Below are positions 16,874 through 24,005 of a stretch of DNA of 54,311 nucleotides, in pieces. Source of the DNA: Clostridia bacterium (lineage in GTDB: Bacteria > Bacillota > Clostridia > Oscillospirales > JAAYXM01). The notes below the pieces were generated by a model that did not search any database, was not told where the DNA came from, and saw only the letters and a program-made list of their open reading frames with translations. Each line of letters opens with the position of its first letter. The stretch's first letter is position 1. The stretch is from positions 1 to 54,311 of the forward strand of contig JAFYQP010000005.1 in assembly GCA_017559855.1 (NCBI GenBank), in the 5' to 3' direction. The translations under genes and the position numbers were made by a program.

Positions 16874-16906
16874 TGTTCCACGTGGAACATTGTTTCACGT
16901 GGAACA
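16874..16906. promoter_or_regulatory. parS: Tandem parS sites
   Basis: TGTTCCACGTGGAACA (16874-16889), a perfect 16-bp palindrome, and TGTTTCACGTGGAACA (16891-16906), one base apart. Both match the Firmicutes parS pattern with the CACGTG core. The second ends exactly at the noc stop codon. They sit between noc and soj, about 7.6 kb from oriC, and should be centromere sites for the ParB encoded at 15152-16018. Confidence 0.93.
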
Positions 16907-17719
16907 TTATCGAGGTGTTTTATAAATGCTTATTGTCATATGCAGAGCGGAGTCGTCTTCCTTTTTTGTAAGGTCTGCTTTGATCCCAGAGGAACGCATA
17001 GTATCTACCGCATGATTTATGGTGTTTACAAACGGGCGGACGTCTTTGAAAACAAAAACTGTGCGTTTTGGGGAAGGCTTGGTCTTTTCTACAAGCAGAC
17101 GCTCAACGTATTCGTCGGTCTGGGAAACGTTTAAGTTCCGTGCGATTATATTTTGCAATGCGGATTCCTGCAGTTCGCTGTTTTCCAGACGAAGAAGTGC
17201 CCTTGCGTGGCGTTCGGTCAGGTTGTTTTCTATTATAAGTTTAATTACCTTTCGGGGTAATTTTAGAAGGCGTAGTTTATTTGAAACAGCGGATTGGGAC
17301 TTTCCGAGTTTCCGCGCTGCTTCCTCCTGAGAAAAATTATAGGTGCGGATAAGATTGTCGATACCCAAGGCTTCCTCAAAAAAATCCAGATCGCATCTCT
17401 GCAGGTTCTCTATAAGGGCTACAAGGGATGACTGCCTCTCATCCATATCCGATACTATGGCGGGAATTTCCCGAAGCCCTGCCATTATTGCAGCACGCAG
17501 ACGGCGTTCCCCTGCGACAAGGACAAATCGCTCGTCAATTTTCCTTACGGTTATGGGTTGAATAACTCCGTTTTCTGCTATACTGTGGGAAAGTTCACGC
17601 AGTTCATCCGCATTGAATACTTTACGCGGCTGTGCAGGATTGGGCTCAATTCGTCCGATGGGAAGCATAACAATTGAAGTGTTTTCATATATAGGTTTCT
17701 TTCGTAAAGGTGAGAGCAT
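16907..17719 (-). CDS. noc: Nucleoid occlusion protein Noc
   Basis: ParB paralogue of 270 residues. The CTP-binding motifs are present (GERRLRAAIMAG and ENLQRCDLDFFEEA). The DNA-reading helix is GKSQSAVSNKLRLLKLPRK followed by TERHARALL; the Gln, Lys, Lys and Arg positions are those reported to switch specificity from parS to Noc sites, so this is Noc rather than a second ParB. Known Noc blocks division over the nucleoid by tethering DNA to membrane through an N-terminal amphipathic helix; here the N-terminus (MLSPLRKKPIYENTS) is only weakly amphipathic. The ribosome binding site lies in a hairpin (17725-17776). Confidence 0.93.
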   Translation of the reverse strand: MLSPLRKKPIYENTSIVMLPIGRIEPNPAQPRKVFNADELRELSHSIAENGVIQPITVRKIDERFVLVAGERRLRAAIMAGLREIPAIVSDMDERQSSLVALIENLQRCDLDFFEEALGIDNLIRTYNFSQEEAARKLGKSQSAVSNKLRLLKLPRKVIKLIIENNLTERHARALLRLENSELQESALQNIIARNLNVSQTDEYVERLLVEKTKPSPKRTVFVFKDVRPFVNTINHAVDTMRSSGIKADLTKKEDDSALHMTISIYKTPR

Positions 17720-17724
17720 AATAA

Positions 17725-17776
17725 ATTCCTCCTTACTTATAAATTACCATTTTCTTCCAAATAAGTAAAGAGGAAT
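17725..17776 (-). promoter_or_regulatory. Hairpin covering the noc ribosome binding site
   Basis: Two 16-base arms (17725-17740 and 17761-17776) separated by 20 bases. In the noc mRNA all 16 positions pair, with one U-G wobble. The downstream arm contains the noc Shine-Dalgarno AAGGAGGAA, 6 bases before the ATG, so the folded leader should hide it. Alternatively the DNA inverted repeat is an operator for a dimeric repressor. It does not resemble parS or the known Noc site. Confidence 0.7.
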
Positions 17777-17839
17777 ATATCGACAAAAAGTATGTAGTTT
17801 TAACAAAAGTAACGGTAATGCGTGGAAAATGCACAAAAA

Positions 17840-18544
17840 TTATAACGGATTCTTTTGTATTTTGGCGAAGCGTCGGGGGTATTTTGAGGGGGTATTTGCA
17901 AGTTTTTTAATAACCACCACGCAATATGCAAGATCTGTTCCCTCTATTGAGTATTCCCAAATTCTTTCTACACGTGCCTGAAGTGTTTTAATTGCATTCT
18001 CGGATGCCTCAAGTTCTGCAAGATAGTCCTTTGACTTCATTGCAAGGAAAACGCCGCCCGGCTTTACAAAGGGGAGGCAGAGTTCGCAAAGCATCGGAAG
18101 AGAAGCAACCGCACGGGAGGTAACCACATCAAAACAATCACGGAAATCGGCGCTCATTGCCGCCTCTTCCGCTCTTGCATGGATGCAATTTGCATCTAAA
18201 CCAAGCAAATCGCAAGTGTTTTGTAAGAAATCCACTCTTTTTCTTAAACTGTCGAGGAGAGTAAGATTTATATCAGGACAGGCGATTTTAAGAGGAAGGC
18301 CGGGAAATCCCGCACCGGTGCCAACATCAATAACCTTTTTCCCCGAAAAGTCAAAACAAGCAAGAAGAGCAACGGAATCTGCGAAATGACGGAGATAAAT
18401 CTCCTGCGGGTCCACAATTGCGGTTAAGTTCATAACTTTATTTGTTTCTATAAGCGTTTCACAGTATTTTTCAAAACGCTCCTCTGCCCTTGCGTCCAAG
18501 GAAATATCGAGACTTTGCAGGGCGTCTTTTAATTTATTGAACAT
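17840..18544 (-). CDS. rsmG: 16S rRNA m7G methyltransferase RsmG
   Basis: Methylates N7 of G527 (E. coli numbering) in 16S rRNA. The SAM-binding motif is VIDVGTGAGFPGLPLKIA (about residues 70-87), followed by LLDSLRKRVDFL. The start MFNKLKDALQSLDI has a GGGG ribosome binding site. At 234 residues it is typical. It follows mnmG by 13 bp, the conserved pairing, and is separated from noc by a 120-bp gap holding the noc leader. Confidence 0.95.
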   Translation of the reverse strand: MFNKLKDALQSLDISLDARAEERFEKYCETLIETNKVMNLTAIVDPQEIYLRHFADSVALLACFDFSGKKVIDVGTGAGFPGLPLKIACPDINLTLLDSLRKRVDFLQNTCDLLGLDANCIHARAEEAAMSADFRDCFDVVTSRAVASLPMLCELCLPFVKPGGVFLAMKSKDYLAELEASENAIKTLQARVERIWEYSIEGTDLAYCVVVIKKLANTPSKYPRRFAKIQKNPL

Positions 18545-23750: not shown

Positions 23751-24005
23751 GATAAAAAGCAATGAAAGGGACGGCAAAAAGTAAAACACTTTTTCCAGAG
23801 AGCAAGGGCCATAAGGCTGAAAGCCCTTGCAAAAAGTCACTTTTTACCTACCACCCTTTGGCTCCCGATTTGAAGTGACAATGTGTAGGGTTGGGCGTAT
23901 GGCGTGCGTTAAACGCAAAATGAGGGGCATTCTTTATGAATGCAAGCAGGGTGGAACCGTGTAAGCCTACACCCCTGGTTTTATCAGGGGAGTGGGCTTT
24001 TTTTA
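23751..24005 (+). promoter_or_regulatory. T-box leader (threonine) of thrS
   Basis: The T-box sequence AGGGTGGAACCGTG is at 23948-23961. Stem I closes with AAAGGG (23765-23770) / CCCTTT (23854-23859). Its apical part has GGCTGAAAGCC (23814-23824), the typical AG-loop hairpin. The 3' side of the specifier loop reads ACCTACCA (23846-23853); ACC, a Thr codon, is read at 23850-23852, followed by a purine. The terminator is GCCTACACCCCTG / CAGGGGAGTGGGC with a T7 tract (23965-24004), competing with the T-box antiterminator. Uncharged tRNA-Thr should permit read-through into thrS. Confidence 0.93.

Follow-up and report, generated by a model that had tools for sequence, protein, structure and literature searches.

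Analysis of a 54,311-nt stretch of DNA (contig JAFYQP010000005.1; the whole stretch is called the window here) revealed that the gene noc is preceded by a 16-bp inverted repeat whose RNA hairpin is nested with the noc promoter and buries the noc Shine-Dalgarno (SD) sequence, an arrangement that probably insulates noc from read-through of the upstream genes. If so, the arrangement deliberately frees noc expression from that of the upstream rsmG genes. The proposed insulation hairpin is new for noc, and no report of noc leader control was found in the literature searched, which lay mostly outside subscription journals.

The hairpin, noc, and rsmG all lie on the minus strand. The noc gene (positions 16907 to 17719) encodes a 270-aa protein of the ParB/Noc family with ParB_N and HTH_ParB domains; its best NCBIfam model was TIGR04285 nucleoid_noc, at 296 bits and under the cutoff of 315, and by-eye alignment against PMC7383237 placed Q173, K179, K184, and R201 at the four specificity positions, where Q, K, K, and R are assigned to Noc (PMC7383237). 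The rsmG open reading frame (17840 to 18544; TIGR00138, 173 bits, above the cutoff) ends with a stop codon 120 nt 5′ of the noc ATG, and scanning of the rsmG-noc gap on the minus strand detected no terminator-like site. Despite the four NBS-specificity residues, the Bacillus subtilis site ATTTCCCGGGAAAT had no exact match and two one-mismatch sites in the genome sequence examined, and this Noc may recognize a different target site. Two parS-like palindromes, TGTTCCACGTGGAACA and TGTTTCACGTGGAACA, were observed between noc and soj (16874 to 16906), and exact matches to TGTTYCACGTGRAACA occurred nowhere else in the genome sequence examined. The Rfam scan of the window returned a single match, a T-box leader on the plus strand at 23753 to 23979 (RF00230, 98.7 bits), and none at the hairpin.

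The inverted repeat consists of a 5′ arm, ATTCCTCTTTACTTAT (17776 to 17761), a 20-nt loop, TTGGAAGAAAATGGTAATTT (17760 to 17741), and a 3′ arm, ATAAGTAAGGAGGAAT (17740 to 17725), with 15 Watson-Crick pairs and one U-G pair. The whole noc SD, AAGGAGG (17734 to 17728), is contained in the 3′ arm; it is the sole good SD of noc, followed by AAGGAGGAA, 6 nt, and the ATG at 17719. The 52-nt hairpin alone formed the full stem in RNAfold at −17.9 kcal/mol, and the stem was extended by 4 further pairs once the flanks were included. Thus, the two structural claims of the initial annotation, that 16-base arms pair throughout with a single U-G and that the second arm holds the SD 6 bases from the noc ATG, were both confirmed. 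An intrinsic terminator was also considered for the repeat and rejected: the stem is AT rich and followed by TTATTATG, with no real T-run, and the terminator scan did not call it.

To place the noc promoter, about 150 noc leaders gathered from the family, the order, and a genome collection were compared, with the loci of a class-level search (L167 to L177) left out of the leader analysis. A promoter common to many of these leaders was found, comprising a −35 element TTTAC[AT] or TGGACA, a 17-nt spacer, and an extended −10 element TGG-TATTCT, TGG-TATTAT, or TGG-TAATCT, and the best by-eye alignment paired GGTCGATTTCCCTTTACTTTTTGGCATATAATGGTAGTCTATAA of L107 with TGTCGATATATTCCTCTTTACTTATTTGGAAGAAAATGGTAATTTATAA of the window. 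By this consensus, the predicted −35 element of the window is TTTACT (17764 to 17769), within the 5′ arm and aligned with TTTAC[AT] of the relatives across the 17-nt spacer, and the predicted extended −10 element is TGG-TAATTT (17741 to 17749), at the 3′ end of the loop, where relatives have TGG-TA[AT]TCT or TGG-TATTAT. The −10 hexamer TAATTT is weak, its TGG extension aside. Consensus and conservation together indicate that transcription should start near 17734 (17733 to 17736), 6 to 8 nt past the −10 element and inside the 3′ arm, which would give a leader of only ∼15 nt with the SD at its extreme 5′ end. Because the −35 element lies in the first arm, the −10 element in the loop, and the predicted start in the second arm, the mRNA that noc makes from this promoter most likely lacks the first arm and would therefore be unable to form the stem. 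A start downstream of 17761, named in the initial annotation as a finding that would refute its interpretation, is accordingly probable for the main transcript. An alternative promoter-like site, TTAAAA-18-TATATT (17774 to 17803), was found by scanning and was not conserved in the leaders inspected; its start, at about 17767, would leave just 7 nt of the 5′ arm in the RNA.

These positions suggest two fates for noc RNA. Read-through RNA from mnmG-rsmG would carry both arms and fold the 16-bp stem, and ribosomes would not load at noc, while RNA from noc's own promoter would start within the second arm and leave the SD exposed. In folding calculations, the probability that the SD is unpaired was 0.001 in read-through RNA versus 0.25 to 0.39 in RNA starting at 17736 to 17733, and opening the SD cost 13.1 kcal/mol in read-through RNA versus 4.0 kcal/mol in own-promoter RNA. 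Since the hairpin would form only in read-through RNA, noc output would depend on the noc promoter and not on the upstream operon.

The occurrence of strong leader stems is linked to the upstream neighbor. Stems with a z of >3 were found in 20 of the 34 leaders that follow a codirectional rsmG at a distance of <170 nt, compared with 15 of 118 others. After removal of near-duplicates, promoter-spanning hairpins with a score of ≥24 were present in 13/31 rsmG-adjacent leaders versus 5/100 others (Fisher P = 2.8e-6, a value inflated to some degree by kinship, as the leaders are not phylogenetically independent). The nearest relative, L012 (Noc 59% identical), has a divergent FAD oxidoreductase gene upstream and a similar promoter without a hairpin, and in L072, L074, L076, and L078, where the upstream gene on the same strand encodes a Spo0A-like regulator, a different SD-burying hairpin is present. 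In several rsmG-adjacent leaders (for example, L095, L103, L111, L125, L159, and L166), the spanning hairpin is missing and an ordinary terminator precedes the promoter, and in some, such as L121, no spanning hairpin or terminator is clearly recognizable. The hairpin thus accompanies a close codirectional neighbor rather than noc as such, and we conclude that it probably serves to insulate noc from read-through.

Two other readings of an RNA hairpin have to be weighed against these observations. First, the stem could be part of noc's own mRNA and block translation until opened by an RNA-binding protein, a small RNA, or temperature; the full stem does fold and bury the SD, and promoter-like sites exist upstream of the hairpin, including one ending in TATAAT at 17839. 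We regard this as unlikely, considering that the conserved promoter lies within the hairpin, that most relatives with a hairpin also have promoter elements overlapped by the 5′ arm, that neither a conserved loop or aptamer nor an Rfam match was seen at the site, and that the hairpin is linked to the close codirectional neighbor and not to noc itself. Second, upstream transcription could disturb the noc promoter while delivering a noc mRNA that cannot be translated, and transcription of mnmG-rsmG would thereby actively lower Noc. The anatomy of such a long-transcript switch is identical to that of insulation, and the switch would follow from frequent, regulated read-through, but no sign of regulation was found in this analysis, and the fact that ordinary terminators take the place of the hairpin in relatives argues for plain insulation, leaving a regulated switch with quite a small probability.

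A best-stem scan of all noc leaders showed that many lineages have strong stems whose arm sequences are unrelated, in several layouts. The 3′ arm includes the noc SD in the window, in L086 (21-nt arms), in the four leaders behind the Spo0A-like gene, and in L132, L128, and L106, while in L035, L040, L043, L045, L048, and L059 a T-run follows the 3′ arm and the −10 element of noc is located within the loop or on its border, resembling a terminator that has a promoter in its loop. The 3′ arm of L037 and L041 is the SD of a four-codon open reading frame (MFFK) whose stop codon overlaps the noc ATG, a layout suggesting translational coupling. In L140, L163, and L164, an arm overlaps the −10 element and base pairs with the region of the noc start codon; among these leaders of f18 genomes, an A-T arm pair of L140 is T-A in L164, with L163 as the mismatched intermediate. 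Moreover, an alignment of five leaders (L040, L059, L041, L037, and L042) had 69 of 70 cells paired (98.6%) and compensatory changes in 4 pairs, and one-sided changes almost all yielded G-U pairs. Its covariation score was 0.450 compared with 0.258 for shuffled alignments, none of 500 shuffles scored as high, and every slid control was lower. When arms were swapped among 38 leaders, own arms scored 23.6 versus 15.3 for foreign pairings, and none of 20,000 permutations reached the score of the own arms. The genus of the window is represented by one genome, and no relative was found to retain the window's own arms; thus, the covariation that had been proposed as a check holds for same-place hairpins in other lineages, that is, for the architecture, but not for these 16 pairs.

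The initial annotation had proposed either posttranscriptional control of Noc or a DNA operator for a dimeric regulator. Action at the RNA level is the most likely, given the covered SD and the covarying hairpins of relatives, but it would apply to the rsmG read-through RNA and not to noc mRNA as such. An operator, in which the inverted repeat flanking the −10 element would bind a dimer, accords with the symmetry of the repeat around the promoter and with an inverted DnaA-box-like pair around the −10 element in L084, L100, and L112; it is nonetheless disfavored and very unlikely, because the arms of different lineages are wholly dissimilar and their changes are compensatory, the near-universal G-U outcome of one-sided changes aids an RNA stem rather than a palindromic operator, and the repeat is single copy, with no second copy found in the genome. 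The inverted pair in those three leaders, TTTTTCCACA ... TGTGGAAAAA, resembles two DnaA boxes, and DnaA control of noc was rejected in view of its presence in these three near-identical leaders only. As a separate observation, the word GGACAAG (or CTTGTCC), mostly as GGGACAAGCC, occurred near the predicted noc start in 24 of 153 leaders versus 1.5 expected from shuffles (L014, L015, L017, L036, L039, L086, L091, L092, L095, L099, L104-L106, L120, L123, L125, L128, L132, L140, L158-L160, L163, and L164). Its occurrence in both orientations suggests a DNA element; the word is absent from the noc leader of the window.

With criteria of 16-bp arms, at most one G-U pair, and a loop of up to 60 nt, three repeats were found on the minus strand of the window, whereas dinucleotide shuffling (60 replicates, 3.3 Mb in total) yielded one. 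SD-covering stems were also scored at 613 gene starts, crudely called from 983 kb of this genome; that of noc ranked second with a score of 37, behind sigG with 38, the 99th percentile being 29.4. A chance or neutral inverted repeat, for which the AT-rich sequence and the unexceptional stability of the entire 151-nt leader (z = −1.26) might speak, is scarcely credible given this rarity and the recurrence of such hairpins in relatives.

Insulation by a promoter-nested hairpin may extend beyond noc. The first-ranked sigG of this genome has a hairpin, CATAAAAATTTCCCCCGATGGC / GCCGAAGGGGGAAGTTTTTATG, directly after the upstream sigma-factor gene (L212, 5290 to 5329), which matches the B. subtilis sigG hairpin (PMC5942855). 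At a spoIIQ-like gene, an SD-burying hairpin (L190, 2690 to 2726) encloses a sigma-F-like promoter, GTATA-N15-GGCTAAAATA by our reading, and similar SD-burying stems were found at spoIIR (L189, 11400 to 11440) and, on minus strands with positions counted from the start of the reverse complement, at a GH18/LysM gene (L194, near 4565), an HPF gene (L203, near 9904), and a VWA gene (L216, near 2410). All of these genes sit behind codirectional genes. With confidence just short of even, we tentatively suggest that promoter-nested hairpins are a general, little-noticed means of insulation in these clostridia, in which promoter DNA doubles as the anti-Shine-Dalgarno or terminator arm that silences read-through, and which noc leaders reevolve with new sequences beside a close codirectional gene. 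On the same tentative footing, sigG, the spoIIQ-like gene, spoIIR, and noc would be instances in this genome, and the GH18/LysM, HPF, and VWA genes candidates. No general survey of the device was found in the literature searched, again mostly outside subscription journals. If this is correct, clostridia make recurrent use of a device known from a single sporulation sigma gene and the lysozyme gene of a phage, and an SD-burying hairpin seen in genomic sequence may be absent from the gene's own mRNA. Any genome can be screened for this pattern, in which a promoter occupies the loop and the 3′ arm holds an SD or T-run.

The noc hairpin shares features with several known systems. Like the hairpins of riboswitches and RNA thermometers that act at ribosome binding sites, it holds the SD within a stem, but it has no conserved sensor and no Rfam match, and its 5′ arm is probably outside the own mRNA. 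An intrinsic terminator between rsmG and noc, as in the six relatives with a T-run after the 3′ arm, occupies the same place and has the same insulating effect, whereas the 3′ arm of the window has an SD in place of the T-run. The classic phage case is the lysozyme gene e of T4, whose late transcripts initiate within a helix and are translated. In the long early RNA of gene e, which starts upstream, this helix sequesters the SD or start codon (PMC3014915), as proposed for noc, but serves lysis timing rather than insulation of a bacterial operon. At B. subtilis sigG, read-through RNA folds a hairpin that prevents its translation, and transcripts of the sigG promoter are unable to form this hairpin (PMC5942855). 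Thus, the initial statement that no control of this type is described holds for noc in the literature searched, but the same anatomy exists at B. subtilis sigG. Unlike sigG, noc is a chromosome-segregation/division gene with a vegetative-type extended −10 promoter and a hairpin predicted from sequence, while both have a codirectional upstream operon, a hairpin of 16 to 20 or more bp with its 3′ arm over the ribosome binding site, and an own-promoter RNA that is unable, for noc by prediction, to form the hairpin.
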